In this document: positions 5,968 through 53,672 of the stretch, one piece after another | How the letters are laid out: every line of letters begins with the position of its first letter | How positions within the stretch are numbered: the first letter of the stretch is position 1 | Assembly: GCF_958298935.1 (NCBI RefSeq) | Contig: NC_084940.1 | Coordinates: 15,929,146-15,993,145, forward strand | Source: Phragmites australis | Lineage: Eukaryota > Streptophyta > Magnoliopsida > Poales > Poaceae | Length of the DNA stretch: 64,000 nt | Direction of reading: 5' to 3' | Made by a program: the position numbers and the translations under genes | Notes under the pieces: model-generated | The model's database searches: none | What the model saw: the letters and a program-made list of their open reading frames with translations, nothing else | What the model was told of the DNA's origin: nothing

Positions 5968-6668
5968 CTGCGCATAAGTGAAAAACTATTGGGAACCTAT
6001 ACGATAATATGTACAGCAGATGCATTCATCTACTTATGAATTATCTCATCGCCTCCACATGTGTCTGTTTGGTCCAGGTTGAGGTAGTGGCTTGGGCTAC
6101 CTTCTTCAATATTTGATGATGGCACTACATGTGTCACACCCGATTTTAACGGACAAAACCAAGTGCGGCTTATGTGTGCTCAGGAAGTTAACACACATAA
6201 GGATATCATAGGTGAAGTAGCAAAAGTAATACTTTTATTAAATAAACGTTCACTTCTTAAAGAATAAAGATTTCACCTAAACAACCTCAAAAATTAAACT
6301 AAATGACAGCATCTAAATGACGGCAGCAGGACGAAAGTATTGGCGACCAAGCACTCCACAGGCACCGACTGGAAGACACGCCCCTAGAACACCAGGTCAT
6401 CATCTTGGAAATCTTCAAAATCTTCCATTGAGCAACATACATTTTTGTAGGAGAAAGCAATGGTGAGCACATAGAGTACTCAGCAAGTGTGGGAAAGTAA
6501 TGATATGCAGGCTTATATCAAAAATAGGCTAACACATGGTATTTTGCGTAAATGTGAGTATTGAAAATACATTTGGACTCAAAAACATTACGCACTTATT
6601 AAATGAATGTAACCCAAACAGTTCAGCATCCAACATACAAGGCTTCCCACCTTGTACACCATAACTGT

Positions 6669-6761
6669 CTAGTACTCCCTGTACTATAACCAAAACCATC
6701 TAGTACTCCCTGTACCAGAACCATCGCCAACTAGTACTCCCTGTACTAAAACATAACCAAC
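6669..6761. repeat. 31-bp tandem repeat, three copies, inside the LTR
   Basis: The string CTAGTACTCCCTGTAC occurs at 6669, 6700 and 6731, so the period is 31 bases. The rest of each unit (ATAACCAAAACCAT and variants) is less conserved. It falls in the long U5/leader part of the LTR. Confidence 0.8.
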
Positions 6762-8590
6762 ACCCTCTAATCATGTGAGGATCCAAGTCTCTCATATCCG
6801 TGAGCACGGCTGTTATAACAGTTTTACACTCTGCAGAGATTGTCCATCTTTCCCCACGAGTTAGTGAATTCCATGTTGCCGCGTTTGCAAGACACTTAAC
6901 ACACGCCAGTGGTGTGCCACCAAGAATCACTGTATGACACTTTCCACTAACTAGAGACTAACCCAGTATGTGTCTGCGCACTAGGTTTCATCGCCAGGCT
7001 TTACGCGAGTTCAACTCCTACCCAGAAGCCCCCTTTTGAGCTAACCCAACACACACTGGATAGACTCTAATCAGTATGTCACGCCTTACCCATATCAGCC
7101 TCGTGGTTGATACGTTACTTCTTGGGTTATCGCTCCACGAACTGGTCCTTACTTAGGCTACTTGAGCCAACACTAAACCAACATCATAACCATGATAACC
7201 ATCAAATGCTAGACCATTAACAAATTAACCATCAATGTTGTATATGTTCATTAGTCAAGATTATAACACTTCTCAATATCCCAAAAGCATGGCTAAGCAA
7301 TCTACCCACAAAAGACACCTAACAATAAACCATCTAGGTTCCAAGGAATGATAAGGGAAAATCTAGGGAAAACCCTAACATAGGTAACTACCCATCATAT
7401 TGACAGACATTGCATGCAGTTTTATGAACAAAATATTTAAAAACATAGGTTCAATATGATCAAGGACACTTACCTTCTCCTTGCTGCTGCTCAGTGTATT
7501 CTTGCTCCTGGTCTTGATGTTCCTCAAATTGATCTGGGGCGTTGTCGGCTAATCGCACAATAACCGGCAAACAAACAAACAAGATACAGTAAGAACAGAG
7601 CACAAAACAAAAGAACAACAAGATAAAATCTATCTAGGAAAAAAGAGCACTGAAAAACGAATCTATCGGCGCAAGAATCGCTTAAAACGGAGCTACGACG
7701 AAAAAGTTAGGGCTAAAACAAATCTAGGGTTTAATCTGAAAAAGAAAAGGGCTTATTTAGAATAAAATAGAAAGTTCAGGGACCTTTTTGTAAAAATAGG
7801 GGACCTAATTATAATTATGAAAAGGTCAGGGACTAATATGTAAAAAGGTAGGTGCTTTTTGCTAAAAATAGAGAAGTTTAGGGGCTTTCTTGCAAAATTA
7901 CCAATTAAAAGGATTATCTGAAATTATTTTTAGATTGAAAAACCTCTTTTATTACGTGGCTGCTGACTGGTTTGACACATAGGCAAGAGGGTTGAGATGG
8001 CAGTTGAGGTGGCAAGATGACGTGGCAAAACGACTGACTGGGTTCAAGCATAAACACGTGGCGCTACGCTATTGGTTGTTGAAGGGGTATGTTCGGATCT
8101 AATCTCGGCCGTGCAAAACAGATCCGGCAACTCAGAGGAGCTCGGCTATCGGGGAAAGAAGTCACGATGACGCTGAGGGGGTTTGCGGCGGCGCACGGCC
8201 GGGAAACTCGCCGGAATCGGTTCCAGCTCGCCAGTGGCAACGACGAGCGGTGAAATCCGAAGAGGGAAGCATGACGGATCCGTTTTAGGATTTACCTTGG
8301 GCAGGGCGGTACTGGATGGGCTCGGCGACGGAAGGAGCAGCGGAGGACCTCGGGATGTCATCAGGAAGGGGTCTCCAATGGCGCAGGAGCCAAGGCGACG
8401 GCGGGGAGTGCTTCGGTTGATGGCCGCGGTTCTGCTAGGCTGCTCGGGTGAAGCTCAACTGTGCTAGGGTGGCTCGGCGGCGTGCTCAACCGAGAGGTGG
8501 CGACAATGGTGGCGGTGGGGCTCGAGATCGGCGAAATTGGCTTGTGACTCGGTGGGTTTGGGACGAGATGAGATCAGGGGAGGGGTCCTA

Positions 8591-8600
8591 GTTATATAGG
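8591..8600 (-). promoter_or_regulatory. TATA box of the Tekay-type LTR
   Basis: The minus strand reads GCCTATATAACTAGG, a good TATA box, followed by a pyrimidine-rich stretch (CCCCTCCCCTGATC) where transcription of LTR elements usually starts. The distance to the LTR 5' end is about 510 bases, a normal U3 length. The matching position in the 5' LTR is missing, so this TATA box can only drive transcription out of the 3' LTR, toward the CACTA at lower coordinates. Confidence 0.55.
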
Positions 8601-9107
8601 CGGGGTCTCGTGCAGAAAAAGGGAACGCGGCGGCTCGTACTCCACTCAGACTCAGTCGATGGCGCGGCGGGCAGACTCCGGGTCGGAGACGACGGCACAG
8701 CGAAGGCGGCTTCTGCGTGGGCGTCTTCGGCACGTTGCTGGTGGGTGCTGGGCCGGACCGAGGCCCAGGCGGAGGAAGAGTAAGGCCGGCCGGCTGGGCT
8801 GAGGCCGAAAGAAAAGAGAGAGAGATTTGGGCCGGAGGGAAAAAGGCAGCCCGAGAAGGTTTATTCTTTTTCTTTTTTTCTAAATTCAAATTCAAAACAA
8901 ATCCACTTCAAACAAAATCCATCAAAAGCCAAATAAAAATCCTATTTGCCTAATTCAGCATGAATGCATAATAATCAATTATATCCTAGTCAAATATATC
9001 TTTCTTTTATATAAAATAGGATTTTTACCCTTTTTAATTATTTAAACTCATATTAAATTCTAGCAAATTTAAGAAATTTCTAAAGGTGGAAAAATTAGGG
9101 TGTTACA

Positions 9108-9121
9108 AACCTACCCCCCTT
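9108..9121 (-). other. Polypurine tract of the Tekay-type element
   Basis: In sense the bases just before the 3' LTR read AAGGGGGGTAGGTT, followed directly by TGTAACACCC. This is the plus-strand primer site expected at this place and fixes the inner edge of the 3' LTR at 9107. Confidence 0.75.
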
Positions 9122-12100
9122 GGAATGAATCTCGCCCTCGAGATTCACATGGAGCAGAGAAGAGATGAGGAAACTCCGCCTTCAGATCTTCTTCTCTTTT
9201 CCAAGTTGCTTCATCTTCCGAGTGGTGACCCCATTGCACTTTGCACATTGGTATTACCTTGGTTCTGGTTACTCTTTCTGATCTCTCAAGAATCTTCTCA
9301 GGATACTCTGTATAGGAGAGATCTTCCTGAACATCCAGTTCCTCCATTGGTAATTGTTCCTCCGGCACTCGAGGACACTTCTTCAATTGGGAAACATAGA
9401 AGACATCGTGCACATCTGACAGTTGATGCGGTAACTCCAACTGATAAGCTACTTCTCCTCTCTTATCCAATATCTTGAAGGGTCCAATGAATCTTGGTGA
9501 CAACTTTCCTTTAACCTTAAACCTACGAAGACCTCTTATAGGCAAAACCTTAAGATAGACGAAATCTCTAATTTTGAAAACTAATTCTCTTCACCTGTTA
9601 TCAACATAACTTTTTTGTCTGGATTGTGCAATCCTCATATTGTCTCGAATTATCTGAACTTGCTTTTTTGCATCTCGTAGAACTTCTGGACCAAAGACCT
9701 GACTTTCTCCTGTCTCATTCCAAAATAGCGGTGTTCTACATTTCCTTCCATACAAGGCTTCAAATGGAGATATTTGGAGACTTGTCTGATAACTGTTGTT
9801 ATACGAAAACTCTGCATATGGCAAACTTTTATCCCAACTCTTACCATACTTCAGAGCACACGCTCTTAGCATATCCTCAAGTATCTGATTTACCCTTTCT
9901 GTCTGACCATCTGTTTGAGGGTGATAGGCAGAACTAAAATTCAACTTCGTGTCCATAGACTCATATAGCTTCTGCCAAAACTTGGAGGTAAACTGAGTTC
10001 CTCTATCCGAAACAATCTGCTAGTCTAGCTCCACTATATGTAGTCTTAACCGGAATAAAATGGGCGACCTTAGTTAAATGATCAATTACAACCCATATAG
10101 AATCATATCCATTCTGGGTACGGGGCAATCCGACAATGAAATCCATACCAATCTCCTCCCATTTCCATTCAGGTATCTTCAAAGGTTGCAGTAACCCTGC
10201 TGGTCTCTGATGTTCTGCTTTGACTTTCTGGCAAGTATCACACAGGGCTATGTATTCTGCAACTTCTCTTTTCATTCCATACCACCAATAACGATCCTTA
10301 AGATCCTGATACATCTTTGTACTTCCAGGGTGAATAGAATATGCTGATTCATGAGCTTCTCTCAGAATCATCCTTTTAATATCCTCCCGGTTATGCACAC
10401 AAATTCTCTTTTTGAACCACACAGTACCTTGACTGTCTTCCGTAAATCCTGGAGCTTTATCTTTCTTAATAAGCTGTCTAATTTATTTGAGCTTCTCGTC
10501 TTCTAGTTGACTTTTCCGAATTTGTTATTCAAGAGTGCAATCTATTTCCATGGTGGTTATTTCCATATCTGCTACAAATCCAAGGTTGAGCTTCTCAAAC
10601 TCTTTCCATAACCCAGGTTGACTATCTTGAACCATCACCGAATTACTGTAACCCTTCCGGCTCAAAGCATTGGCTACAACATTTGCTTTTCCTCGATGAT
10701 AGTGAATCCCCACATCATAGTCCTTTATTAACTCCAACCATCTACGCTGACGAAAGTTTAGATCCGGTTGAGTGAAAATATACTTTAAACTCTTATGATC
10801 CGTGTATATTTCACAGCATTTTCCGATGAGATAATGCCTCCAAATCTTGAATGCATGAACCACAGCTGCTAATTCTAAATCATGTGTAGGGTAGTGTTCT
10901 TCACACTTCCTTAACTGTCTTGACGCATAGGCCACGACCCAACCTTCTTGCATGCGAACACATCCAAGTCCTTGTCGCGAAGCATCACAGTAGATATCGA
11001 AATTCTTGCTAATGTCTGGTAGAACTAGCACTGGAGCCGTAGTCAATCTCTTCTTCAATTCTTCAAAACTTGCTTGACAAGCAGGGCTCCACTTAAAAAC
11101 CACATTTTTCTGAAGCAAAGAGGTAAGAGGTCGGGCTATCCTAGAGAACCCTTCTATAGAGCGGCGATAGTATCTTGCTAGTCCAAGAAAACTCCTGATC
11201 TCTGACACGTTGGTAGGTGGTAACCAATTCAATACATCATTTACTTTACTGGAATCTACTGCTACACCTCCATCGGTTAAGATATGGCTAAGAAATGCGA
11301 CTTGATCTAACCAAAAATCACACTTGCTAAGCTTGGCATGCAGCTGATGTTCTCTGAGTGTCTACAGCACAATTCTCAAATGTTCTTCATGTTCTTCCTC
11401 ACTTCTAGAGAAAATTAGAATGTCATCAATGAACACCACTATAAACTTGTCCAGATAATCCATAAATACCTTGTTCATGAGATTCCTGAAGTAGGCTGGG
11501 GCATTGGTTAATCCGAATGACATAACAGTATACTCATATAGCCCATATCGAGTACTGAAGGCAGTCTTTAGTACATCTGACGGTTGAATCTTCAGCTGAT
11601 AGTATCCAGACCTTAGATCAATCTTGGAGAACACTCGGGCTCCTCTCATCTGATCAAACAAATCCTCAATCTGGGGCAACGGATACTTGTTCTTAATGGT
11701 TACCTCATTGAGCGCTCTGTAATCTACACACATTCTTCGACTACCATCCTTCTTATCCACGAAAAGAACTAGGGCTCCCCAAGGTGAGGCACTTGGTCTA
11801 ATGAAACCTCTGCTTAATTGTTCTTGGATTTGCTTCTTTAACTCAACTAGGTCGTTAGCCGACATTCTATATGGCCTTTTTGTTATAGGGGCCGTACCAG
11901 GTATCAACTCAATGACAAACTTGACTTCTCGATCAGGTGGCATACCTGGCAATTCATCGGGGAAGACATCGGGAAACTCACAAACTACCTTGATCTGATC
12001 AATGGTTGTTCCTTCAAGCGAATTGAGAGATCGATCCTCTACTGCTGGTACAGCAGCCATGAACTCAACTTTGGTACCTTCTCCATTGGTTAGGTGAACT

Positions 12101-12549
12101 GCCCTTCTGGCACATTCTATAATTCCGTTGAACTTGGCTAACCAATCCATTCCAAGGATAACATCTATACCCTTGGTTTCCAAGGCTATGAGATTCGCTG
12201 GGAAGTCTACCCCCCTTATGCTAAGTCTTATCCTAAGACATATATATTTTGCCTTCAATTCCCCTCCAGGAGAGCTAATAAACATATTATTCTTCATCAT
12301 AACCATAGGCAACCCATGTTTTGCAACATACTGAATGGTTATAAAGGAATGCGAAGCTCCAGAATCAAACAAAATAGACGCAGGTCGGGAGTTAACGAGG
12401 AACATACCGTACACCACATCCTGAGCATCAATAGCTTTCTCTGCTGTGACATGGTTGACTTTCCCATGAACATAATTCTGTTGTCCACGATTGTTCTGAC
12501 CGGGGTTCTGACTCCCACTGCATGAGTGGGCTGAGGCTGGAGTTGACAT
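9111..12549 (-). pseudogene. pol of the Tekay-type element: protease, RT, RNase H, integrase, chromodomain
   Basis: One reading frame runs from 12549 to about 10003 with in-frame stops. It contains the protease motif [10 protein letters not shown] (about 12360), RT blocks [24 protein letters not shown] and the catalytic [10 protein letters not shown] (about 11430), RNase H blocks [13 protein letters not shown] and [11 protein letters not shown], the integrase zinc-binding region (HPGSTKMYQDLK...CDTCQK), and the first catalytic Asp (GMDFIVGLP). A TAG at 11362-11364 replaces a conserved Gln codon, and a TAA lies at 10525-10527. Near 10003 a deletion removes roughly 15 residues before IVSDRGTQF and shifts the frame. 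The rest of integrase ([14 protein letters not shown]) resumes, with a TGA near 9591, into the GPFKIL module and chromodomain. Confidence 0.85.
9159..9311 (-). other. Chromodomain-like segment at the integrase C-terminus
   Basis: After the GPFKIL...VFYVSQLKK module the frame reads TEYPEKILERSERV, then MCKVQWGHHSEDEATWKREE, then LKAEFPHLF. The order (EK-ILE, K-x-QW, DEATW-x-x-EE) is that of chromodomains in Tekay-type integrases, proposed in the literature to guide insertion toward methylated histone H3. One tryptophan (KVQW) corresponds to a cage position of HP1; the third cage position is His here. Whether it binds methyl-lysine cannot be told from sequence. Confidence 0.7.
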
Positions 12550-12576: not shown

Positions 12577-13569
12577 CTACACCTTTTTAGGGCATTTATT
12601 CACATAGTGCCTTTCCTCTTCACAATAAAAACATCCTTTGTTTGGGCCAGGAGTAGCTGGACTGTTCTTGGCTTGAGGAGTAGCTGGTGGGGTTGATCGG
12701 GGCGTCTGATAGTTGGAGCGCTGAACAGGGATTTGCGACTGAGTCCGGTACTGAATGTTAGAACAAAACATAGGGCCTTGCAGAGACATCTGTGTTGCTC
12801 CACGGGATCGTGTGTTGCTTCCTTGTCCTTGAAAAGACATCTTCCTCTTCTTCTCATCCAGCTGACGATGCTTGTGCTCAACCATCAGAGCTTTGTTTAC
12901 CATTGCTTGAAAATTGGGAAACTCTTGTAGAAGTAGAGCATATTCTATGGCATCATTCAGACCTTCCAGAAAACATTCCTGCTTCTTTTCTTCTGTGCCC
13001 ACTTCATTGGGAGCATACCTGGACAACTGAGTAAACTTGGTCACGTACTCCCTTACAGTCATTGATCTTTGTTTCAGGCTCATAAACTCCTTCTTGAGAC
13101 GGACATCTCCAGACGATAGGTGATGAGTGCGGAAACTGGATTTAAACTCCATCCATGTGATAGCTACTGGATTTTCATGTGCAGCGCAGTATGCTTCCCA
13201 CCAGTCTAGGGCTTGACCCGCGAGTTGATGTGAGGCATAGAGAACCATCTCCCTATCGTTGCACTGAGCAACATGTAGCTTCCTTTCTATATTCTTTAGC
13301 CAATCATCTGCATCCATAGGTTCCACTGCATGACTGAAGACTGGGGGTTGAGTTCTTTTAAATTCTCTAAATCTTGATGGTTGATGCAGTTGAGGAACAT
13401 GATTTGGCTATTGCTGCTGCATCTGCACCATGGTTTGAGCTAGAGCTTGCAAGATCTAAGTTTGCATAGCCATCTGTTGTTCTAAGGTTGTTGGAGGGAG
13501 CGGGGGTGGATTCTGGTTGTTGTTGTTGTTCGCTTCTTGAGTATTAATACTCCTCCTTGTGTTAACCAT
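12577..13569 (-). pseudogene. gag of the Tekay-type element
   Basis: The probable start is the ATG at 13567-13569 (MVNTRRSINTQEAN, then Asn-, Pro- and Gln-rich). The capsid-like part reads EPMDADDWLKNIERKL, WWEAYCAAH, and LSRYAPNEV with EECFLEGL-type sequence (here KKQECFLEGLND). It ends with one zinc knuckle CFYCEEERHYVNKC (CX2CX4HX4C), which has Arg where Gly is usual. Two in-frame TAG stops (13456-13458 and 13408-13410) interrupt the Gln-rich N-terminal region. Both fit loss of a CAG glutamine codon by C-to-T change. The stop at 12577 separates gag from pol. Confidence 0.85.
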
Positions 13570-13983: not shown

Positions 13984-14637
13984 TCATTCTTGGTTGACAT
14001 CTTGTTCATCCTCAAGAAATGCGGAGACGAAGGCAAGGCGTTGGCGAACTTCTCCCAACTCCCATAAAGCGCAGTCTAGTTCATCTTCCAAGGCCACAGT
14101 GAGGGCAACTTGTTCCCGTAGCTTGGGGTTTTCTCCAAATGGGCTCTTCACGAACGGTTCATTACTTCCACGAGTTCTACGGGAACAATATGTATAAGGA
14201 GAGTTGTCCATCTTGCTGTTATATTGATCACGAACACGGGATATGGCTTGACGAGCTGCATCTCGAACACCAGCGGTGAAGGTTGCTCTTGGGACCATTG
14301 CTGAGTGAATGCCCACCACTCTTCGAATTTCCAAACCTTCATCTTGACTTCGCTCGTAATCATAGATAGTGACTTCAACCTTCCATTCCACATATCCAGA
14401 GAGTTGTTTCTTAACTCCCCTGTAGACTGGCTTCTGTGTATGTCCAAGTCCAGAAAGTATCCCCCATAGTAGGCAGGGAAGGTATCTAGCATGAAGGCCA
14501 TCGCTTTCATAGACGTCGGGAACGGGGTCCATACTCCGGAAAGTGGGGTCATCAATCTCCTCTTCAGTTGGAACACGTTGAAGAATGGATGGACGTCCTC
14601 CGGTTGATTTGCGGGCAGTAAGTAGCTGGCGAACCAT
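13984..14637 (-). CDS. Extra sense ORF upstream of gag with a histone-H3-like N-terminus
   Basis: This open frame of 217 codons lies between the primer site and gag, in the sense direction, about 150 bases after the primer site. The start ATG is 14635-14637. The N-terminus is MVRQLLTARKSTGGRPS; residues 7-14 are identical to H3 residues 6-13. Next come an acidic stretch (PTEEEIDDPTF), a middle segment predicted by eye to alternate strands and a helix (YVEWKVEVTIYDYE, LEIRRVVGIHS, GVRDAARQAISRVRDQY), and a leucine-rich coiled-coil-like tail (LEDELDCALWELGEVRQRL). The frame stays open for 45 codons beyond the TGA at 13984-13986, to a TAG at 13846-13848, so the original product may have been longer. 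It is not gag, pol or a classical env. Function unknown. Confidence 0.65.
   Translation of the reverse strand: MVRQLLTARKSTGGRPSILQRVPTEEEIDDPTFRSMDPVPDVYESDGLHARYLPCLLWGILSGLGHTQKPVYRGVKKQLSGYVEWKVEVTIYDYERSQDEGLEIRRVVGIHSAMVPRATFTAGVRDAARQAISRVRDQYNSKMDNSPYTYCSRRTRGSNEPFVKSPFGENPKLREQVALTVALEDELDCALWELGEVRQRLAFVSAFLEDEQDVNQE
14596..14637 (-). other. Histone H3 tail mimic, TARKSTGG, at the ORF N-terminus
   Basis: Codons ATG GTT CGC CAG CTA CTT, then ACT GCC CGC AAA TCA ACC GGA GGA, give MVRQLL-TARKSTGG. Numbered without Met, R2, T6, A7, R8, K9, S10, T11, G12 and G13 equal histone H3, while K4 is Leu, T3 is Gln, Q5 is Leu and K14 is Arg. K9 and its neighbours, the site of H3K9 methylation and S10 phosphorylation, are in exact register. 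Val after Met is a residue that permits Met removal. Codons are mixed rather than GC-rich as in typical grass H3 genes, so recent capture of a host H3 exon is not obvious. Confidence 0.85.
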
Positions 14638-14787
14638 CTAAAAAGGAAGAGATGGGATATAAAAAATAAACTTATAGATAGCAAGAGACAAGTATGAGAA
14701 CTATAGAAACGCTCTGATGGGTTTAGATGAACTAGGTAATTTCTTAGGATGACCATTCTATCTATGCTTATGACCCTATAGTCAGTA

Positions 14788-14801
14788 TGGCTCTGATACC
14801 A
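14788..14801 (-). other. Primer binding site, initiator tRNA-Met
   Basis: The minus strand reads TGGTATCAGAGCCA, the common plant primer site complementary to the 3' end of initiator tRNA-Met. It lies four bases inside the 5' LTR remnant, fixes the transcription direction as minus, and marks the inner edge of the 5' LTR. Confidence 0.9.
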
Positions 14802-14805
14802 TCTC

Positions 14806-15114
14806 TTTCACACCCGATTTTAATAGATAAAACCAAGTACAGCTTATATGTGACCAGAAAGTTAACACACATAAGGACGTCATAGGTGAAGTAGCAAAAG
14901 TAATACTTTTATTAAATAAATGTTCACTTTTTACAGAATAAAGACTTCACCTAAACAACCTCAAAACTTAAACTAAATGATAGCATCTAAACGACGGCAG
15001 CGGGACGAAAGTATCGGCGACCAAGCACTCCACAGACACCGACTGAAAGACACACCCATAGAACATCAAGTCGTCGTCTCGAAAATCTTCAAAATCTTCT
15101 ACTGAGCAACATAA
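14806..15114 (-). repeat. Truncated 5' LTR of the Tekay-type element (about 309 bp kept)
   Basis: It starts TTTCACACCC where the 3' LTR has TGTCACACCC, so the terminal G is changed. Homology then runs through TTTATTAAATAAA, CACCTAAACAACCTCAAAA and ACTCCACAG...GAGCAACATA, matching 6132-6436. After GAGCAACATA the two copies part company (15114 here, 6436 there). The lost portion is the outer 2.67 kb: the rest of U5, R and all of U3 with the promoter. Confidence 0.85.
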
Positions 15115-15895
15115 AGTAGAAGATTTTTAATGGAACAATATCTACACAAGATCATATTTTATACTTCTTCTTTTTCCTATCAGAGTTTTTAAAAGTATAC
15201 AATATATATCTATTATTCTCTAAACTCACTTTTAGTTTCCCTTCTACAAAAATTTCTTGTATGAGTTTGCAAAAAGATAATAATTAATATATATTGTATA
15301 ATTTTCTCCTTATTTTTACTAAATTTTAAAAAGAATTTTAACGCATATCATTATTACTCTCATCACATTTTTTTTCCCAGGTTCTTCAAAAAAAGTTCTC
15401 ATAATAATATATATATAAATCGGCATTGATAAAAAAGAGAGGGTTAAAAAACATATGATCAACTGCTATCATGATGGTTTACTCGGCCGTTGACATCAAA
15501 CACCCCTTCGAGAGGTAGGTTTACTCGCCCGTTGGCATCAGACGAGATGCCTCTCAAACAGACATCTTTGTAGTGTATATATATCCAACAATTAATCGAT
15601 GAGAAAAGATAAGAGTTCAAATCTGTTTTTGTCTGCACTACTCTTTGCAATCCAATCGTTCTTAACATCTAGAGAAAAAAGGGCATACTGGATGAGCTAG
15701 CATTGTCGAAACGACAACAAAATCATCTACCATGGGACCTTAACTTCAAGAGACTGAGTTTGCTCAACCTGCATTCTATTATAATAACGTAGTTAACATG
15801 GTACACACGGTAGGTCAGGTCAAAAGTTGCATGCCGTTGAGAACTTGAAGCTTCAGGGATCAGATACGAGGCCACCCGTCACCAGAAGAGCCAGG
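15115..15895. other. AT-rich spacer and probable EDM2 3' UTR
   Basis: 15115-15460 is AT-rich with homopolymer runs and no recognisable element. 15460-15895 probably contains the EDM2 3' untranslated region, because the EDM2 stop codon is at 15896-15898. A short repeated phrase, TTTACTCG(G/C)CCGTTG, occurs near 15480 and 15522. No clear polyadenylation site can be assigned. Confidence 0.4.
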
Positions 15896-18800
15896 TCATC
15901 CGTATGGGTACTGTTTAGGCAATACGCTCGTGGGTTTCTTGTTGTTTGTTCCGTCGAGGGAGGGAGTATATTTGTCCATAACTGAGTTTTGTGGTCCACT
16001 TGGACTCGAAAGCCCATACGCATACTTGTCCATAACCGAACCTCGTGGTGCACTGGCACCTGAGAGACCAAAAGAGTGAGTAGTAGAAGCAGGCTGGCCA
16101 AATCTAGCAGCTGAAGATCCAAGAGAGTAGTATCTTGTCTGTAGGTAATCATCAGCACTGGCTGCACCATGCATTCTTAGTTGTGCTTGCGAGTCTATGA
16201 CTGGTGGGGTCCTTCCAGTTTGTTGGTAACTATCACCAACTTGTCCACCATACCTTGTGAGGTGTCCTTGCATAATAAGCATATCAGCAACTGGACTCTC
16301 AGAAACACTAGTGACCGGTGGGGTCCTTCCAGTTTGTAGGTAACTATCACCAACTTGTCCACCATACCTTGTGAGGTGTCCTTGCATAGGCATGTCAGCA
16401 ACTGGGCTCCTCTCAGAAACACTAGTGTTCCACTCTTCTGAGTTCTGCCGCCTATAGAAACTACCATCATCTCCTCTAGGTTGCAAACTGTACATACCAC
16501 CAGTTGGAGCAGAGCCATAAATCTTGGTCATGTCTTCAATGTTGGAGCCACTCTTCCTTGTGCTATTATCAATTTCAACGTAAAAAGTAGGATCATTTTT
16601 CCTCTTAAGTGCATAGTATTCATCATTGCTTGCCAAATAACTGCCCTCATAAGTAGCTCTATCCAATGCAGAGACAAAAGGTTCTTTTGCAGGACCGCTC
16701 ATGTAGCTATCCAGGTGAGCTCTCCTCTCAAAGGTGTGTTCAGTTGGTATAAAAGGGGACTGGCTCCTGGATTTGCTTCGAGCATTGCTGTTATCAGGGG
16801 ATGAGATACTCATGTCTGAATCCCCTCCCTCCCTGAACTTGATATTTGACATCACAGCTGCTCTTTTCTCATAGTTCAGAGCACTCTTGGATTCATCCCT
16901 ATGAGCATTTCTTTCATCTTCGCGGTGAGCAAGTCTTTGTTCTTTGTGTATACTCTTTTTACTTGGGATAACTTTTGTTTCCTCGTACGCAACTTCCACT
17001 TGCTTTTCGGGAGGGAGATTGTCTACCTGATCAGGGGCCCACTTCCTGCTCCAGTTATCTGAGCTCCTGCTTTCGTCCCTGCCATTCACTTTTTCTTTTC
17101 CTGATTGAGAGGTTTTTTCCCTGGTGGATTCAGCTTTTCTCTTCACAGACAAGTTATCCCGCCTATCAGCCTCTTTCACATGGAATGCATTCTTCACTAG
17201 AGTCTCTTTCTCTTCTTCAGATCTAGCATGTTTCTTAGCAGGACGTTCATCCGACAGAATGGCCCCACTGACATTGCATACAGTTTTATCTATATTATAT
17301 CTCTCTTTCCCTGATCCAGAGTTCCATTTGCTGCCAGCCTCAGCTTGTTTCCTCGTGGGGAGATCATCTGATATATTATCCTCTTTGGGATGGCATGACA
17401 TCTTTCCTGTATTCTCTTTCTCTTTCCCTGATCTAGCATTTAGTTTGTCAGAAGATTCAGCTTCTTTCTTCAGAAGATCGTCTGATAGATTAACCTCTTC
17501 AATATGGCAAGCTCTCTTCCCTATACATGCGTGATTATGCTCTTCAGCTATTTTTTTGTGCTTCTTTGTCCAATCAGGATGACTCCACAAATAGAGAGGT
17601 GGTGCAGATGCATTCCAACCTTCAACAGTTTTATCATTCAGATCTACAGAACCAGGCAAATAAAACACCTGCAAATTGCAAGAAAGATGTTCGGAAAAAT
17701 AACTAGAGAATAGAAAGAAGCTCAATGAAGTTAAGTAAAATGTATTGAAGTTCATTACCTTCCCAGCAAGACATTCACTATCCTCCCAAACCAAATCATA
17801 TGGTGTCAATGGTGTCTTCTTTTGATCTAACCTGGTTATACCCAGAGAATGAACACAGGGAGCAAGTCACCCCCCCCCCCCCCAAAAAAAAAAAAAAAAG
17901 AGATGTCAGTATGTTAATCTAACAAATTTAACACAATATTCTACCCAAAGGAACATGCTGCATACCGTTTAGTCTCTTTGGGGACAATTAGTACAATGAG
18001 CTTAGGATTAAATGCCAATGCTTTATCAATAAATTTGTTCGCAAGAGATGCTTTGACTCCAAAAGGAGGATTAAGCCCCATAATCTAAACAAGAAACAAT
18101 CAAAGATTATAATTATTAAAATACACTAAAATGTGTCTAATGATGTCCAAATAGAACATACTAGTTGAGACCCACGAGGCAGCTCATTGGGCTGCACGGT
18201 CATCCAATCCCTCTTTTCAAAACAGAAGTGATTCTGCAAAGCAGAGAACACATACACATTACATCAAGCATGAAACATTGTGGAACTAAGCATGATCAAC
18301 AGTTAAGCCTGAATCTTTGTATGAATAGAATGATCATAAATTAAACTGATATAAATAACAGGAAACTAGAAGTCCAACAAGGGCACTTTCTGCCCATAAA
18401 ATACAAAAATATAAGCACTGGACATAATTTAGAGCATTAACTTTAAGAGATTTATTTGATGGAAAGAAAGAAATAAAATTCCATAAATCATTGAAACAAT
18501 GATTTCATATTACAGAAGAAAAATCAAACGAAGAAACAAGGGTTCAATTGTCTTCAATCTCACCTGTGGTTGGATAAGGTCATAATTCTTGAAATGGCAC
18601 TTTTTCTTAACATGGTCAAGTTTTTCTTTCATCAGTCGGCAGAAATCATTTGCACCGCAGCAGAAATCTACTATCTGCAAGATCATGGAGTTTAAGATGT
18701 TAAAAAACTAACGCAACAGACAACAATGGAGTCAGTGATTTTATGTGGTTATCCATAGAATCATAGAGAAAAAGTTAACTTCATTACACCAACAACAACA

Positions 18801-21800
18801 AAGCCTTTTAGTCCCAAGCAAGTTGGGGTAGGCTAAAAAGAGAACTTCATTATTTACAAGAAAAATCTCCATATTATACAATATTGAACACAAAGCATCT
18901 TTAGGCAATTTTACTCCTGGTTTTCTTACAAAAATATTTTATTCATATCATTTTTGCAACTGATAAGCACAGGAACCATAGTTGCAATCAACTTGTGTAA
19001 CACCTCATTTCCACTTGAATCATTCATGAGCACGGAATATATCAAACAATGGTCATGTACAAACGCATAAACCAGTACCACTAATTTTTGTTATATTTAA
19101 TGAATTTTGTAACAGCTAAAAAAAGTACTTCAAAGGAGGCCATAACCAATTGATGGTACAAAATATGTACTGCTTATTCTAGGGAAAAAAACGTACCATG
19201 TCACCAGAATCCACATACCAGTGAAGTTTATCAACAATCTGTACCAAGAAACCAGAAAGTTAATGACGTAACCAAATCGGATTATAAGAAAATTATTCAA
19301 GGGGGTAACTATGGTACACACACCCTCTTAGATACTAAAAAATTCATAAATTATCCCCATGACTTGTTCCCATACAGTTTCACATCCCTGACACTGGCAC
19401 CCTCACCTCCTGAGCTACCGCTGCCACAAAATCCTACTTCCACTCACGCTTGTTTCTCTCAGTTTACCAGCCAATAGCACCAAACCTAGAATCTACTGAC
19501 ACCTGAGCATGCTACCCCACTCTCTCGTGTGCCCACATGCACTAGCTTCCAACACCCATCCTTCACATTTATGAAGCGGACAGCAAATGATGGCTGCACC
19601 CCTGGTGGCAGCAGCAGGAGAGCAGGTCCCAATGATGAAGGTGAGCAGGTAGCAACCACAAACTGGTTCCAGAGTGGCACTGCCCTAACCATTTTTCCTT
19701 TTTTATCCAGATAAGTATATTTTTATGTTTTGATCTGTAGCATTTTTAGAGCAAGATTTCATTTCTTTTTGTTGCATTCTTTTTTTGAAGTTGCATTTTT
19801 ACGTTTCAGGATGCTACCTTTTTTCCCATGGGTTGCACTTTTCTGTGGTTGAACTTTAGACTTAAATTTTAGACGCAATTAACAAGCTACTAATTGCCCA
19901 TTAGCTGCATCTGGCTATCATTTGCACGCAACCTTCTCCGGCAGTTCTTTTGCACCACCGGCTGATGATGCCCCCCCCCCCCTCCCTCCACACCCCAACC
20001 ACCCATGCAGACCTGCCCCCGCAGCCGCCTGAGTACCAGCACCTCCCAGCACCCGCAGCCTCCTTCCCGCCCGCCCTAAACCTCTCCACACCTGCAGACG
20101 ACCACTTGCAGGCACAGCCACCACCGGCACCATCCACCATTGGACCTCCCTCCCAGCCGATTTCTAAAAGCCAGGGGTATAATCCTTCACTCGAACCCTA
20201 ATGACGTGGCCCTCGCCGTCGACGTCGTCGTCTTCATCTCTATAGTATAAAAACTTATTGTTTAATTTTAGCACATGGTTTTCTATTTTTTTAATAGGTT
20301 GCATTCTTGAGAAGTCTCAACAACTTGCTTAAGTTAGAGATGCGCATAGCCATCCCACTATTTAATCAAGAGAAACAACAGATTATAGAAACGTAGAGGT
20401 ATTCAGTAGGTAATGAATGGGAACCACTTACAAAACATTTAATTCTTCTCCCCCAGCATTTTCTCTCATTTCATATTTTCCCTCATCTGCCCACTCCTTA
20501 CTCGTATAGTGAATGGTGAAGAAACTATGTGCAAAGTGAATAAACTAACACATATACCACAGTCATATTCTTAATTCTAAAGTCTGCAGATTGTGTTATC
20601 CAGAAGAGTAGCACTTCTCAATAAATAATTTCAAGAGAAAGGACATCTTAGCACAGTCAAATGCCAAAGTGCTTACAAAGCTTTTCTCAAACATATTTTT
20701 TTAATTAATTTTTTTTCTCAAACAAAAGTGCTTACAAGTGCTTACTATACTCCTTACTCGTATAGTGAATGGTGAAGAAACTATGTGCAAAGTGAATAAA
20801 CTAACTATACCACAGTCATATTCTTAATTCTAAAGTCTGCAGATTGTGTTATCCAGAAGAGCAGCACTTCTCAATAAATAATTTCAAGAGACAGGACATC
20901 TTAGCACAGTCAAATGCCAAAGTGCTTACAAGGCTTTTCTTGAACATTTTTTTTTTCATTAATTTTTTTCTCAAACAAAAGTGCTTACAAGGCTCACAAA
21001 GCAAACCCAGGATGGTAAACACATGATAAGATGTGTTTTGAGGAGACAACACAAACAAGAAGGAGAACGGAGATTCGTTTTCAAGGGTTCTGCACATCTA
21101 ATTTTTGGCATGACATACGTTATGGGCATGGTGGCTTCTATAAAGTTGAATATCTCACCAGATGTGGAAAACTATAAAGTTGAATATCTCACCAGATGTG
21201 GAAAACTTACTGTTCAAAACACAATATAATAAACTGTTTCATAGACAACCTCCAACATTCCCATGCAATTCAACATAATATGTGAATTTCAATATACCTC
21301 AACAAGCTTTTCCACCTTCGTAAAATGTCGACCAAAAGAACTGTAGCGTGTGCCATGAATAAAAGGTGATATGTATACTCTGAGCTTACTCTGGTAGGAG
21401 AAAACAATTAGAAATTAGTAAATTGATTGGTCACTATCACATTGTGAGGTAGAAGTGAAAAGTGTTCTGTCCACTAAACATCACAATATCTTCTCAGAAG
21501 AAAATTTTTAAATCAGAGAGTACGTAAGTGCTTACTAATGCAAATAACTTGAAGAGAATCACTACAACACAGAGGAGAAATGTGAGATTGCAACATATGA
21601 TGTCCAATTATTACAACCAGGACTCAGATCCATTCAGCTATGTATCCAATTAGAAATGATATCTCCATAAGCTTATTTCCATTACTGACTTTGGGAAGAT
21701 AACATTCAGATAAAACAGGTTTCTTAATAACAACAGTATCAATGGAATATTAAGCAAGTACCAATTGGAACATAAACATGATATATCATAACATAGAATG

Positions 21801-33826: not shown

Positions 33827-34737
33827 TGATGAGTAATGTTGGCCTGATCTTCCGATAGGTAGCGATAAGTCGGTGGGTGAAGAACTCGACGTTGATGATT
33901 CAAAGGCTTCGACCCGAACATATCGTCTCCCTTGCGATCACTACACCACAGCTCCGTTGGTTATCAACCGTGTTACGCGATTGACCTTGCCAAGAAGGCT
34001 CAATCCCTGCAAGCGTACCGAGAACACAAGCAAGAACGTAGAAGATGCAATCTGAAATATTGCAAATAGAATTTAAGCACTCGAAGTTGGAGTTCCGCAA
34101 ACACTTGCGGCGGCCTAGTCGGTCCGGAAAAAGAGCGAAAATCTCACAATCTGTGTGTAGATCAATATCTAAGCAAAACTCAACCCTAATTAGGGTAGTG
34201 GCTACTGTATATAAAAGAATAGGGTTGGCCAAGGACCCCTGGACGCGTCCCTAATGGACTCCAACATGTTACACGGCCCAACGGGTCAAAAGATGGTGGC
34301 GCAGCACCCTGACAGATTCTGGATGTTCACTTGTTTCGACGATTCCTATTGACTCGGAAATAATTTGGACATGGGACCAGTTCCGTTAGAAAGCTTATCT
34401 TCTTAGCTTTCCAACCATGTGTAGAACGTCGAAAACGGAGTCCGTATGCGTCCTAGGCGACGATTTTAGTGTAGGCTAGTCCTGGACTCCGAAACGGACT
34501 CGAACTTGATTGGACCTCCACCTAGCTTGGGTGCCCTTGCTGTTCTTCTCCCGTGTTCCTAAGTAACAATACATCACAATTATTCAGTAGCATCCCATCC
34601 TTATTAAAATATAAAGGAACACTAAGAAACGAGCTCACCTCATGATTTAGTTGACGTGCACGAGCTCGTGTCAATGGACCTATTGTTGGAGGAATACTCG
34701 GTGTGTGTGTGTATCCGAAAGAGTGATGTCATCATCA
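33827..34737 (-). repeat. 3' LTR of the CRM-like element (911 bp)
   Basis: Begins TGATGAGTAATGTTGGCC and ends ATGTCATCATCA on the plus strand. It matches 40538-41447 almost throughout. It differs from the right LTR by one additional GT in a GT run near 34701-34712, by GAAGAACTCGAC for GGAGAACTTGAC near 33878, and by scattered substitutions. Confidence 0.9.
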
Positions 34738-37700
34738 TCCTCCCCCTCTTGAATTGGAGTCATCCTCGACGTAATGTCATCTTCTTCTCCCAAGTAAGAC
34801 TTTAAATATGAAATGTTAAATGTGGGACTAACCCCATAATCTGCAAGCAACTCAAGTTTATATGCATTATCATTGATCTTTTCCACAATTTTAAAAGGAC
34901 CATCAACTCGAGGCAACAATTTAGACTTTCTCAAATCAAGAAATCTATCTTTGCGCAAATGTAACCACACAAGATCACCAATTTCAAAAGTAATATGTTT
35001 ACGACCTTGGCTACCATAAATTCTATACTTCTCATTCATCTTTTCAATATTTTTCTTAGTCAACTCATGCATTTTCATAATCAAATCAGCATGTGTCTTA
35101 GCATCAAAATTCAATTTCTCGGATGTTGGTAAAGGAAATAAATCAATAGGGGCACGGGGTTAAAACCATACACTACCTGAAACGGACTTATCTTGGTGGT
35201 GGAGTAAACTGATCTGTTGTAAGCGAACTCAATATGGGGTAGACACTCTTCCCATATCCTCAAATTTTTCTTCAAAACAGCCCGTAACATGGTGGATAAT
35301 GTGCGATTCACAACCTCCGTTTGTCCGTCGGTTTGAGGGTGACATGTCGTCGAAAACAGCAGCTTTGTCCCAAGTTTATTCCAAAATGTCCTCCAAAAGT
35401 GGCTCAAAATTTTTGCATCACGATCCGAAACAATGGTGTTAGGCACTTCATGCAAGCGAATGATTTCCCTGAAAAACAAATCAGCTATGTTTGTAGCATC
35501 ATCGCTCTTGTGACAAGGTATAAAATGTGCCATTTTTGAAAAACGATCCACAACGACAAATATACTATCCCTCCCCCTCTTGGTCCTAGGCAATCCTAAA
35601 ACAAAATTAATAGAAATATCCTCCCAAGGCACACTAGGAACAGGAAGAGGCATATAAAGTCTATGTGGGTTCAAGCGGGACTTAGCTTTATTGCAAGTAG
35701 TGCAGCGTGCCACGTAGCGCTCGACGTCGCGCCTCATCTTAGGCCAAAAGAAGTGAGTAGCCAGTACATCCTCGGTCTTCTTCACTCCAAAATATCCCAT
35801 CAAACCACCTCCATGCGCTTCCTGCAAGAACAATAGGTAAATAGAGCTAGCTGGGATGCATAGCCTATTAGCACGATATAGTAATCCATCATTCAGCACA
35901 TATTTATTCCAAGTTCTTCCTTCTTTACAATGTTCAAAAGCATCTTTAAAGTCCAAATCAGTAGCATATAATCATTTAATTGTTTCTAAATCAAAAATCT
36001 TATGATCGAGTTGGGGCAGCATGGTATAACGTCTAGATAACGCATCTGCAATGATATTGTCTTTACCTTTCTTATGTTTAATGATATAAGGAAATGACCC
36101 TATAAATTCAACCCATTTAGCATGACGTTTGTTTAGTTTGTCTTGGCTTCTAATATGTTTTAAAGCTTCATGATCAGAATGAATAATAAACTCCTTAGGC
36201 CAAAGAAAATGTTTCCATGTTTCTAAAACTTGAACTAAAGCATACAACTCCTTATCATAAGTCGAATAATTAAGAGATGGCCCATTCAATTTCTAACTCA
36301 AAAGTCTTATCAAAGTCCGGAAGTTGGAGTAGAGGTGCATGCGTAAGCTTATCTTTCAGCGTATTAAAAGCTTATTTTTGTGCTGGCCCCCATTGGAACG
36401 GAACGCCCTTCTTTGTCAACTCATTGAGTGGGGGCAGCAATGGTGCTGAAATCTCTCACAAAACGCCGATAGAACCCTACAAGGCCATGAAAGCTTCTCA
36501 CCTGTGTGATAGTCTCAGGAGTTGGCCAGCTCTTGATGGCTTCAATTTTAGCTTCATCCACTTTAATTCCCTGTGGAGTAACAACATAGCTAAGAAAAGC
36601 AACTCTATTCGTGCAAAAGGTGCACTTGTCAAGGTTAGCAAACAAACGTGCCTCTTTCAAAGCAGTAAAAACAGCACGTAGATGATCAATGTGTTCTTCA
36701 TGTGACTTGCTATAGATCAAAATATCATCAAAGTACACCACCACAAATCTTCCTATGAAAGCACGTAAAACCTCATTCATTAGTCTCATGAAAATGCTAG
36801 GTGCATTAGTTAAACCAAAATGCATCACTAACCACTCATGTAGACCGAACTTAGTTTTGAAAGCAGTTTTCCATTCATCCCCCAATTTCATTCTTATTTG
36901 GTGGTAACCACTACGCAAGTCAATCTTCGTGAAAATAATAGAACCACTCAACTCATCAAGCATGTCGTCTAGCCTAGGAATAGGGTGACGATACCTTATT
37001 GTGATATTATTAATGGCTCTACAATCAACACACATACGCCATGTACCATCTTTCTTAGGAACCAAAAGAACAGGAACAGCACAAAGACTAAGGCTCTCTC
37101 ATACGTACCCACGATCCAAAAGGTCTTGGACTTGTCGCTGAATTTTCTTAGTCTCCTCTGGATTGGTCCTATATGCAGCGCGGTTTGGCAAAGTTGCTCC
37201 CGGGATCAAATATATTTGGTGCTCTATCCCTCTCAATGGTGGCAACCCCGGGGGTATCTCAGCTGGAAAGACATCTTTATACTCCTGCAAAAGGTTAGTG
37301 ACAGCAGCAGGCAAAGAGCTAGGTATATCATCAATTGAAAATAAAACCTCTTTGCATACCAAAGCATAGCACAAAGTATCATTATCTTGAATTTCAGCAA
37401 GGTCAGATTTAGTAGCAAGCATAACACCACCCTTTAACTTAATGCCTTCGGACCTAGGTGTGTTCTTCTCTTTCTTAGGTGGAAAAATAGATTGAGCTAC
37501 TTGCTGATTTTCAGATTCCAAAACACGTTCTTTCTTTTCTTTTTCAGCTAAAGCTTTATCACATTGCACAATTTCAGCAGGTGTCAAAGGAAGCAAAGAG
37601 ATTTTCTTTCCCTTGTGCATGAGAGAGTATTTATTACTTCTACTATGGTGTGTAGCATCGATATCAAATTCCCAAGGACGGCCTAACAAAAGTGAACATG

Positions 37701-38226
37701 CTTGCATAGGCACTACATCAAAATCAGCATAATCATGGTAGGAACCAATAAAAAAATATACTCTCGCAGATTGTGTTACCTTAACCTTACCGCTGTTATT
37801 GAACCATTGAATGTAGTATGGATGAGGATGTGCACGTGTTGACAAGGAAAGATTCTTCACAAGATCGGAGCTCAAGAGGTTGTTGCAACTCCCGCCATCA
37901 ATTATGGTATAAACACGTGCATCTTTGATAATGGGGAATGTTTGGAATAGATTATAGCATTGTAGCTGCTCTGCTTGCCCCATTTGAGAACTCAAAACTC
38001 GCTTCACAATGAAGGTGCGTGCTGCATAACTCTCCGTGGCAGCGGTACCACTAATCTCCTCCCCCTCACTATCCATGTCATGATCGGCTGCAAGATTAGC
38101 TTCAAATGCATATTCTTCCTCGACATCACTATGACTAACATATCCACCATCTGCTGTTGCGGAGTATGCTCGCTGGCTTGGGCAATCCTTCATGACGTGG
38201 TCAATACCTTGGCAGCGACGGCACAC
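34680..38226 (-). pseudogene. pol of the CRM-like element (zinc knuckle, protease, RT, RNase H, integrase)
   Basis: In order on the minus strand: zinc knuckle CRRCQGIDHVMKDC (38226 on); protease-like VYTIIDGGSCNNLL; RT with [29 protein letters not shown] and the catalytic [11 protein letters not shown] (about 36740); RNase H with [10 protein letters not shown] but lacking the segment around its first catalytic Asp near 36287; integrase with HHFW-type zinc region, [16 protein letters not shown] and [12 protein letters not shown]. The first integrase catalytic residue reads [12 protein letters not shown], where IS-x-DF is usual, so Asp is Asn. A TGA at 37099-37101 replaces a conserved Arg codon (GYV*ES). 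The C-terminal tail (LLPRVDGPFKIVEKINDNAY, FNISYLKSYLGE) continues into the LTR. Confidence 0.85.
34738..34756 (-). other. Polypurine tract of the CRM-like element
   Basis: In sense, AAGAGGGGGAGGA directly precedes the 3' LTR start TGATGATG. It overlaps the pol reading frame (codons for QEGEDDD), because pol runs on into the LTR. Confidence 0.75.
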
Positions 38227-38229
38227 AAT

Positions 38230-39291
38230 ACCCGTTGTACGACCCGTGGTAGCTGCACTGAAGAAGAGCTTGGCTTTGGATCCTGCAAAACAGTAGATTT
38301 GCTCACCTCACGTGATGATTGTGGTGCTCCTGCTGAACGCGCCCGAGTGTTGGAGGAGGGGGCAGCAGGTCGTGTAGATGTAGAAGGGAATGTTGTTGCT
38401 TGTCCCGGTGGTACTTGTGAAGTAGATGTACTCCCAAAATTGTTCCTCAATTTCTGCACCTGTTGTCAAGATAGCAAAATGGAACAACCTATTGGTAGTA
38501 TTATAATCTTTATAATCTACAAGGTCCTGAATTTTACGTCTCAACCCGGAATAAAAACGAACAATGGTATCCTCATCATCGTCTTGTATATTACAACGAA
38601 GCATAGCAATTTGAAGCTCTTGATAGCAATCATGCATAGATTTAGAACCTTGATTTAAGCGCTGCAATTTCTTTTTCAATTCACGTGTATAATCAGGAGG
38701 AATAAATCTATTGCGCATGGCACGCTTTAGTCTAGGCCATGATTCAGGTTCTAAGCCACTAGAAACTAAACCATTCCACCAAATAATAGCATAATTCATG
38801 AACTCACAAGTGGCTAGTCTTACTCTATGCATTTCAGGAACCATATGAGAACTATACTTTTGATCAACCGTCAGTTCCCAATCCAAATAAGCATCAGCAT
38901 TATATGCACCATCAAAAGGAGACATTGAAAACTTAATCTTAGAATAAGGATCATCGCGACCATTGCGACTAACATAATTACCTCCGTTACCTTGACGACG
39001 TTGTTGTTGTTCACGACGTAATTGTTCAGCAGGACGACATTGCTCAGCACGCGCATCTTGCCCAACAAAAACCTCACCATCTTCTTGGTCACCATTATTA
39101 GTATCATCATCATGTGAATGTTCATCATCCTGTGGTGGCTGTCGCAACTCAAGGTCGTTGACTCGCGTGACAAGGTTAGCAATGCTTGTTCTAATGTCTG
39201 TCAATAGTCTAGTATGATCCTGCAAGGTTTTGTTGAGTTCTTCCTTGGACACACAATCCTTAAAATCTGACGGAGAGTCATCACCTGACAT
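38230..39291 (-). pseudogene. gag of the CRM-like element
   Basis: Starts MSGDDSPSDFKD at 39291. Acidic and Gln/Arg-rich N-terminal part, then the retrotransposon gag core: KFSMSPFDGAYNADAYLDWE, WWNGLVSSG, RNRFIPPDYTREL, LQRLNQGSKSM, RFYSGLRRKIQDLV. The frame shifts near 38460. Beyond it another frame gives a Ser/Thr/Pro-rich linker (TFPSTSTRPAAPSSNTRARS), and a second shift near 38240 leads into the zinc knuckle. Gag and pol would otherwise be one reading frame, as in CRM elements. Confidence 0.8.
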
Positions 39292-40525
39292 GGTTAGTAG
39301 AAAACAAAGGACAACACAATATTATCCCTATCAACTACTAGGTGGTGGAAGGTGGAATCACACACACTCAAGCGTCTTACTACGCTCTTACAAATGTTCT
39401 TACCAACACAGCAAGGAGGAACAACCGGTGATAAGTCTGGAAGCGTGGGATGATTGCAAGAGTGAACCTGTTCGGATCAAAGGAGGTGGAGCTTGGAAAG
39501 GCACAATATGGTAGCAAGGATTAGCAATAACTGTAATCAGATGAGCAAAGCTAAATAAGTGTCTATAGTATGAATCACAGTTGCTGGTCTATCACGTGTC
39601 CCTAGTCCTAGCACAACAGCTGAAACAAAGCTAAAAAGGATGATCAGAGAAAGATACAGCAAACAGCATAATTATCTGGGTGTTCTATATGTACTCCTCT
39701 TTTTTGTCTTTTAGCACTAGTAGGAATCACGAATTTTTTTTTCGTATTTTTCTGATTTTTTTTTCTGAACTAGAAGCACACAAGCAACAGCCACAGAAAT
39801 TTTCAGCTCAAACGGATGCAAGATGTGGCCTATAGAAAATCAAGCACGTTCTCTGAAAAGCGTGCGGAAACTTTGCGGCTCGAATACTCAATCTTCCGAG
39901 CTAAATTTGGGAAAAAAATTTCGGTGGAACCCGCAAAAGTCGGGGAGCAACGGATGTAACTTTTTCTGTAGATGTCCGTGAAATTTTTTTTTGCCTAATT
40001 CCGAGTCCGTATGAGAAAGTTATGGTCGTTTTACTGATCCCCTGTCGAGTTAGGGTTTTTTTCAAAGAACCTCTTGCAGAAATTGGCCTCTTTAAGGTAT
40101 TGCAAGCAATAGGATCGCGAGATGAACAAGGAGGGCAGTGGTGGCAGGGCAATTGATACAAGGCGGCTTGCGACCTATGTAGGGTTGGCGTGGCGGAAAG
40201 TAACACAAGGCGGCTCGCGGTGGCAAATCGAGTAATGTGGTGGCTCGACTTGTTGGTGGGGATGGTGGCGATGGGATAGCGGCGTGATCAAAACAGTACG
40301 GAGTGTTGACTAAAAACCAAGAACACGACTCTAAAACCAGCAACAAGACTCGACCACGGACACAAACTCAACAACGCGCAACTGAAAACAAAAATTGCAA
40401 AGGCACAAAGGGTTCTAGGGCAGCGGAAATTGACGGAATTTTTTTGGTTTTTTCTGGACTCTAGGTAATGAAAAATAGACTAATCTAAAGGAAAAAACAA
40501 AATTACCTAACGGGCAACCTGAAAA
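39292..40525 (-). other. 5' leader of the CRM-like element, no extra ORF recognised
   Basis: The 1.2 kb between gag and the primer site contains only short frames without family features. No counterpart of the H3-like ORF of the Tekay-type element is found here. Confidence 0.6.
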
Positions 40526-40535
40526 TCTAATACCA
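40526..40535 (-). other. Primer binding site, degenerate initiator tRNA-Met type
   Basis: In sense, the 5' LTR ends CTCATCA, followed by AC and then TGGTATTAGA, one base off TGGTATCAGA. It confirms the minus orientation. Confidence 0.75.
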
Positions 40536-40537
40536 GT

Positions 40538-53657: not shown

Positions 53658-53672
53658 GTCAAAGGTGGGGAT
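53658..53672 (+). other. Polypurine tract of the copia element
   Basis: GTCAAAGGTGGGGAT directly precedes TGTTGGG of the 3' LTR, as expected for copia elements, and fixes the 3' LTR start at 53673. Confidence 0.7.

Follow-up and report, generated by a model that had tools for sequence, protein, structure and literature searches.

A histone H3-like tail in K9 register on ORF0 of chromoviruses in Phragmites australis: a candidate anti-silencing protein

Why should an accessory protein of a plant retrotransposon begin like the tail of histone H3? The question is raised by a stretch of 64,000 nucleotides (nt) from Phragmites australis (contig NC_084940.1, positions 15,929,146 to 15,993,145 of the forward strand; hereafter the window), whose minus strand carries a decayed long terminal repeat (LTR) retrotransposon of the chromovirus type with an extra open reading frame (ORF), called ORF0, ahead of gag. 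The anatomy of the ORF0 protein, the register of its H3-like tail around lysine 9 (K9), the spread of this tail across families and the purifying selection acting on it are established here; the core that follows is predicted to adopt the fold of a double-stranded RNA-binding domain (dsRBD).

The H3-like start of ORF0 in the host genome

In the window, ORF0 begins with an ATG at 14637 on the minus strand, immediately preceded by an in-frame TAG, and the N-terminus of the protein reads MVRQLLTARKSTGG, which can also be written M-VRQLLTARKSTGG-RP. Nine of the first 13 residues of H3 are matched in register (R2 and T6 to G13), with K9 and S10 numbered as in H3; the start and the extent of identity proposed by the initial annotation are thus borne out. 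An in-frame stop upstream of the start is also present in 59 of the 60 rows listed (the exception is L013, and the start of L092 is an estimate only). Together with the stops found in a second family (see below), this rules out an alternative start, and the motif is accordingly neither internal nor untranslated.

A DNA pattern coding for TARKSTGG, with TCN codons only for serine, has 159 matches in the 848 Mb (28 contigs) of the host genome, and its reversed control has none. Among the first 30 matches, 24 are ORF0s of the window family and six are H3 genes; none is anything else. How common such matches are in the background, though not in the genome as a whole, is shown by 3105 distinct ATG-started readings of at least 30 amino acids (aa), taken from the window and from loci already picked as ORF0 or H3 matches: 60 of them match at least six of H3 residues 1-13, and these comprise 57 ORF0s and three H3s.

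A search for the window family (family 1) in its own genome scored 150 of 1653 candidates, all with E < 1e-102. Sixty-one sequences were read: the window copy and, from the other 149, 20 of the best and 40 of the most diverged. TARKSTGG is exact in 23 of them, and the individual H3 residues are retained as follows: T6 in 51, A7 in 52, R8 in 46, K9 in 60, S10 in 57, T11 in 56, G12 in 47 and G13 in 59. The departures are mainly C-to-T or G-to-A changes (13 of the 15 changes at R8 give C or H, and 11 of the 14 at G12 give R or E), as is expected of methylated cytosines decaying in dead copies. Apart from such decay, the motif is neither lacking nor free to vary within the family.

A second ORF0 family was found in the same genome with the relative P0020 as query (131 of 897 candidates scored; the best 30 were examined). 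These copies align to residues ~87-295 of P0020, that is to its core and coil, so that the tail lies outside the alignment. All 30 begin with MARVKQTARKTTGG or a MARIKKTARKTTGG-like sequence, preceded by an in-frame stop; the starts were located with a motif pattern that every copy satisfied, L109 having I for M and L103 a frame that differs from that of its core. H3 residues are matched at A1 (30 of 30), R2 (29), K4 (29), Q5 (20), T6 (30), A7 (29), R8 (27), K9 (29), T11 (29), G12 (29), G13 (30) and P16 (29). The earlier statement that K4 is replaced therefore holds for the window family and fails for this one. The same primer site is found within 500 nt upstream in 28 of the 30, and 29 are accompanied by a gag related to that downstream of ORF0 in the window. 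One ORF0 from each family, compared over the whole length, are 37 % identical. In a phmmer search with a family-2 ORF0, H3 or CenH3-type chains make up all of the best 60 of 128 rows; the best match (E = 0.0041) aligns residues 1-42 with 1-42, and the likeness may thus extend farther along the H3 tail. When 12 ORF0s chosen for diversity and intact starts are aligned, all agree in just five columns, namely M1, R8 and K9 (H3 numbering) and two farther on.

The window copy of ORF0 is decayed. It stops earlier than most closed-frame copies: a closed ATG frame of at least 195 aa is present at 18 distinct places, at 12 of which it is 263 aa long, and a length of 217 aa occurs in the window and at one other place. 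Its upstream region also differs. An upstream ATG of the window copy opens a 202-aa frame (14756..14148) that runs into ORF0, whereas in 22 of 24 rows (L002-L057) a short upstream ORF, mostly of 10 codons, lies 118-120 nt before ORF0 and closes ahead of it. These 24 rows, from 38 loci surveyed, are those in which the primer site is exact and the start could be recognised; as L004 and L032 are one and the same place, they stand for 23 different places. Three of the 22 carry a further, overlapping upstream ORF, and the upstream ATG is absent from one of the 24 rows. Re-initiation at the H3-like start could be set by this recurring short ORF.

Distant relatives, selection and origin of the tail

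Does the tail persist at greater distances? A first search returned four related proteins and two profile searches added 78. P0018, P0019 and P0020 entered at E 0.0019-0.0050, above the usual 0.001, and their later strong scores came from a profile containing P0018 and P0020; P0020 has been tied anew to the host-genome ORF0s of family 2 (E = 4.3e-15) and family 1 (E = 2.5e-10). The tail was assessed in 40 of the 83 proteins, the window's included, which have a complete N-terminal extension as judged by the core alone; 37 were set aside because they start near or inside the core or lack an initial M, and six because they have no core match. Over these 40 proteins the in-register match to H3 residues 1-9 averages 5.28, and none of eight other shifts averages more than 2.0, the search profiles themselves having contained the N-terminus. 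H3 with its letters permuted reached 5.28 once in 20000 trials, a figure which, the sequences being related, is no true p-value. The residues retained are A1 (37 of 40), R2 (26), T3 (9), K4 (26), Q5 (0), T6 (33), A7 (20), R8 (25), K9 (35), S10 (7) and P16 (13).

The closest relative in this respect is P0067, whose start, MARTNRTARKSTGGRVPRGQLAPR, is identical to H3 at 16 of 21 residues. When the whole of P0067 is compared with all PDB chains by phmmer, histone H3 comes out on top (E = 3.2e-4, residues 1-24 on 1-24), and P0060 gives a similar indication (E = 0.038). A tail is missing from P0010, whose core is present but preceded by only about 10 residues. In many distant ORF0s (P0018, P0008, P0023 and their kin) K9 is retained and S10 is replaced, frequently by glutamine or a basic residue (MARTKWTARKRV, MARCKTTARKKV); this replacement would abolish the S10 phospho-switch of H3. 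Among viral contigs 76 pattern matches were obtained, none of them a relative.

Selection was examined by sorting the copies into three main groups (22, 18 and 17 sequences) and two small ones (three sequences and one). Net dN/dS, the nonsynonymous to synonymous ratio between groups, was obtained by subtracting within-group differences, which should mostly reflect decay after insertion; the ratio within groups (pN/pS) is 0.22-0.59. For the three main group pairs, net dN/dS is 0.06, 0.01 and 0.04 over codons 1-17, 0.03-0.05 over codons 18-45, 0.12-0.23 over the dsRBD part and 0.08-0.22 over codons 141-216; the eight TARKSTGG codons alone give 0.11, 0.01 and 0.04. This summary omits the 3-copy group (group 1) and the 1-copy group (group 5); in pairs with the former, the tail has a ratio of 0.07-0.17 and the eight motif codons one of 0.18-0.47. 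The H3-like tail is under purifying selection, as the initial annotation had proposed to check, and is among the most constrained parts of ORF0. Codons 18-45 are equally so, and the claim that constraint is limited to the H3-like residues has been dropped for this reason.

Where does the tail come from? In a tree of the dsRBD core, neither TARKSTGG nor ARTK is confined to one side of the deepest split (37 sequences, three of the 40 being omitted for a short matched core; supports 0.906 and 0.818, midpoint rooting). The simplest reading of these sequences is a single old capture of an H3 tail, which would then have been eroded differently in each lineage; convergence is a conceivable, less simple alternative. 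The donor was probably a cellular H3 gene, captured before the ORF0 families split. Codon identity between the motif and six host H3 genes averages 1.65-4.26 of 8 codons and points to no donor.

Predicted fold and candidate functions

Two AlphaFold models predict a low-confidence tail, a core with the alpha-beta-beta-beta-alpha arrangement of dsRBD proteins and a coiled coil; the best structural matches of the core include DRB7.2, HYL1 and DCL4. Pfam gives nothing convincing for ORF0 and its relatives in general: no dsRBD family is matched by the window ORF0 at E ≤ 0.001 or by ten relatives at E ≤ 1. In dsRBDs, RNA is contacted by a KKxAK motif at helix 2; at this position ORF0 proteins have, by eye, PRATF or VRASF. 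A histone-fold domain was not found in ORF0, since the H3 alignments cover residues 1-24 or 1-42 alone and the core is predicted to be a dsRBD. The tail has what is expected of an H3K9 mimic, namely that it is H3-like, in register, conserved and, judging from its low confidence in both models, probably exposed. The initial annotation had noted neither the dsRBD core nor the coiled coil, nor that in relatives the H3-like stretch is longer.

What might such a protein do? The most likely role would be anti-silencing, in which ORF0 would act as a decoy for H3K9 writers or readers and would also engage dsRNA or partners of Dicer. The idea of the initial annotation that the protein is a substrate or decoy for H3K9 writers, readers or S10 kinases, by which the element would escape or use heterochromatin, is likewise a hypothesis. 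The protein would act in the nucleus, as might be expected from the clusters of basic residues that other copies have close to the C-terminus (e.g., SPSPKRPRR in L100). K9 of the tail would be methylated by host H3K9 writers or bound by readers, candidates being KYP/SUVH-type methyltransferases and CMT or SHH1-type readers; the dsRBD would engage dsRNA or Dicer/DRB partners, and the two together would blunt the small-RNA and H3K9 silencing of the element. The H3 tail, fused to the dsRBD-fold core, the coiled coil and the basic/acidic C-terminus, would thus make ORF0 a two-armed anti-silencing decoy, an explanation that we rate just short of an even chance. That a captured H3 tail and a Dicer-partner-like dsRBD, kept by selection, would jam both the H3K9 arm (by K9 decoy) and the small-RNA arm (by the dsRBD) is possible, if doubtful.

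Two observations speak against a link with H3. The window ORF0 on its own has no phmmer match in the PDB, and the statistical case for H3 likeness consequently rests on the relatives; the codon choice of the motif shows no clear trace of a host H3 gene. Three points favour the main rival of the anti-silencing role, in which the captured piece of H3 is a relic that merely supplies a start codon and a basic arm for nuclear import, RNA contact or translation, its likeness being without function: the likeness varies by family (S10 is kept in 7 of 40 proteins, G13 in 5 of 40, and the window family has no K4), constraint on codons 18-45 equals that on the tail, and a basic residue or glutamine follows K9 in many homologues. 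However, T6 and K9 are kept over deep splits (33 and 35 of 40) while their neighbours change, and S/T10-T11-G12-G13 is kept in most copies of both host-genome families. A generic basic arm would need no such register, and we regard a mere relic as somewhat unlikely.

The other rival is a heterochromatin tether: the K9-methylated tail would be bound by heterochromatin readers and bring the RNA or the integration complex of the element to heterochromatin. The register evidence is identical for this proposal and the element is a chromovirus. Moreover, type II chromodomains are reported to be without cage residues and without a known partner (PMC6317226), which would leave room for another targeting device. 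However, a tether leaves the dsRBD core unexplained, and Retrosat2 is reported to be dispersed rather than concentrated in, for example, centromeres (PMC3485330); we consider it distinctly unlikely. It is very improbable that the tail is a ligand of the element's own integrase chromodomain, steering or restraining the integration complex: the same element does encode both proteins, but the chromodomain in the window (9545..9111) retains, by eye, only the tryptophan of the methyl-lysine cage, in line with the lack of cage residues reported for type II chromodomains (PMC6317226). Finally, chance or compositional convergence unconnected with H3, which the absence of a PDB match for the window ORF0 and the uninformative codon choice might favour, is barely credible, a chance match being ruled out by the reversed control (0 against 159), the register test with its letter permutations and the relatives that conserve the register, P0067 with its 16 of 21 identities among them, just as the initial annotation had judged.

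The host element and its place among known systems

The element is a 5'-truncated, decayed LTR retrotransposon with interrupted pol and chromodomain frames (Table 1), in which ORF0 lies between the primer site and gag. Its gag-pol, its LTRs and its primer site, which we take to be of the initiator tRNA-Met type, are those of a Tekay/Del-type chromovirus (Ty3/gypsy), as the initial annotation had stated; the chromodomain is weak, the Chromo match (E = 1.2e-4) falling under the family cut-off. ORF0 probably belongs to the group known from Retrosat2/RIRE3/RIRE8-type chromoviruses, with whose ORF0s it was compared by description: it is a sense ORF between primer site and gag, in an element with ~3-kb LTRs and similar LTR ends.

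Table 1. Positions in the window of ORF0, its parts and the other features of the retrotransposon
Feature	Position	Strand	Remark
ORF0 (extra 5' ORF of the chromovirus)	13984..14637	-	217 aa in the window copy
H3-tail-like N-terminus, Met + 16 residues	14587..14637	-	
TARKSTGG (H3 positions 6-13), K9 in register	14596..14619	-	
Predicted dsRBD-fold core (alpha-beta-beta-beta-alpha), residues ~51-143	14209..14487	-	AlphaFold model of relative L009, gapless alignment there
Predicted long helix (coiled coil), residues ~171-216	13990..14127	-	AlphaFold
Primer binding site TGGTATCAGAGC	14790..14801	-	presumably initiator tRNA-Met type
5' LTR remnant, truncated	14806..15133	-	limits by eye
gag (Retrotrans_gag)	12577..13326	-	
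Protease and reverse transcriptase, frame interrupted	11362..12549	-	
RNase H part of pol	10525..11232	-	
Integrase, zinc-binding part	10003..10422	-	
Integrase end: SH3_Tf2-1 and weak chromodomain	9111..9545	-	22.4 bits, cut-off 25.1
3' LTR, ~3.0 kb, ends TGTAACACCC...GGGTGTGACA	6132..9107	-	ends by eye

Next to the element lies a 637-aa frame (15896..17809, minus strand) with no Pfam match at E ≤ 0.01, which may resemble the C-terminal part of EDM2-like chromatin proteins. Two more pairs of direct repeats (33827-41422, 96-98 % alike, with gag-pol-like frames between the repeats, and 48025-54295, 84 %) are probably other LTR elements. A short direct repeat at 20553-20991 consists of two 186-nt copies, 94 % alike, whose starts are 253 nt apart.

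The initial annotation knew of no described function for this ORF, but the kind of ORF has already been described under the names ORF0 and 5' aORF (PMC3485330, PMC11728184). ORF0s of Retrosat2, RIRE3 and RIRE8 were described in 2012 as peculiar to grasses and without an assigned function, metabolic enzymes being proposed; in these elements and in FRetro3, ORF0 is likewise an extra ORF upstream of gag-pol, the LTRs measure ~3 kb, and the LTR ends of RIRE8 and Retrosat2 (TGTCACACCC...GGGCGTGACA) are similar, if not identical, to those in the window (PMC3485330). ORF0 of Retrosat2-type elements is also described as evolving faster than ORF1 (PMC3485330). For the proteins encoded by 5' aORFs of maize Tekay and sorghum Sb7, a DRBM-like structure (TM 0.35-0.37) and nuclear localisation have been predicted and a modulation of RNA silencing suggested (PMC11728184, 2024). 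The word "histone" is absent from the main text of either paper (PMC3485330, PMC11728184), whereas an H3-like tail is combined here with a predicted dsRBD fold.

The H3 likeness of such ORFs is probably already in print. Steinbauerova et al. are said to have noted in 2011 that some 5' extra ORFs of Poaceae chromoviruses are partly similar to an H3 gene, which was taken as transduction; that account reportedly contained no argument from K9 register, selection or mimicry. The passages of other papers that we consulted gave no confirmation of this similarity. A literature search, with most subscription journals outside its coverage, found neither a plant retrotransposon protein with a histone-mimic tail nor any treatment of the K9 register, its persistence, its selection or the pairing of tail and dsRBD. 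Apparently new are the strictness of the K9 register and its retention from family to family, together with the selection and the pairing of tail and dsRBD.

Comparable proteins exist elsewhere. The tail of influenza NS1 is a histone mimic of an animal virus, and short histone-like peptides on a foreign protein have likewise been described for S-HDAg of hepatitis delta virus (HDV) and, disputedly, for the ARKS of SARS-CoV-2 ORF8. In contrast to these animal-virus mimics, the ORF0 peptide is N-terminal, stands in H3 register over up to 16 of 21 residues and belongs to a plant retrotransposon. VANC, the anti-silencing protein of VANDAL transposons, binds DNA and is unlike ORF0 in fold and in element class. 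VANDAL anti-silencing proteins are, like ORF0, transposon-encoded, and they counter host silencing (PMC11728184).

ORF0 bears on a wider question, namely by what means LTR retrotransposons of plants withstand H3K9 silencing and RNA-directed DNA methylation. An in-register H3 tail joined to a predicted dsRBD fold in diverged families makes the function of ORF0 directly testable. Antibodies against H3K9 marks could cross-react with the protein, which is a warning for their use. In ORF0, plants would have an H3 mimic of natural origin, made by a transposon.
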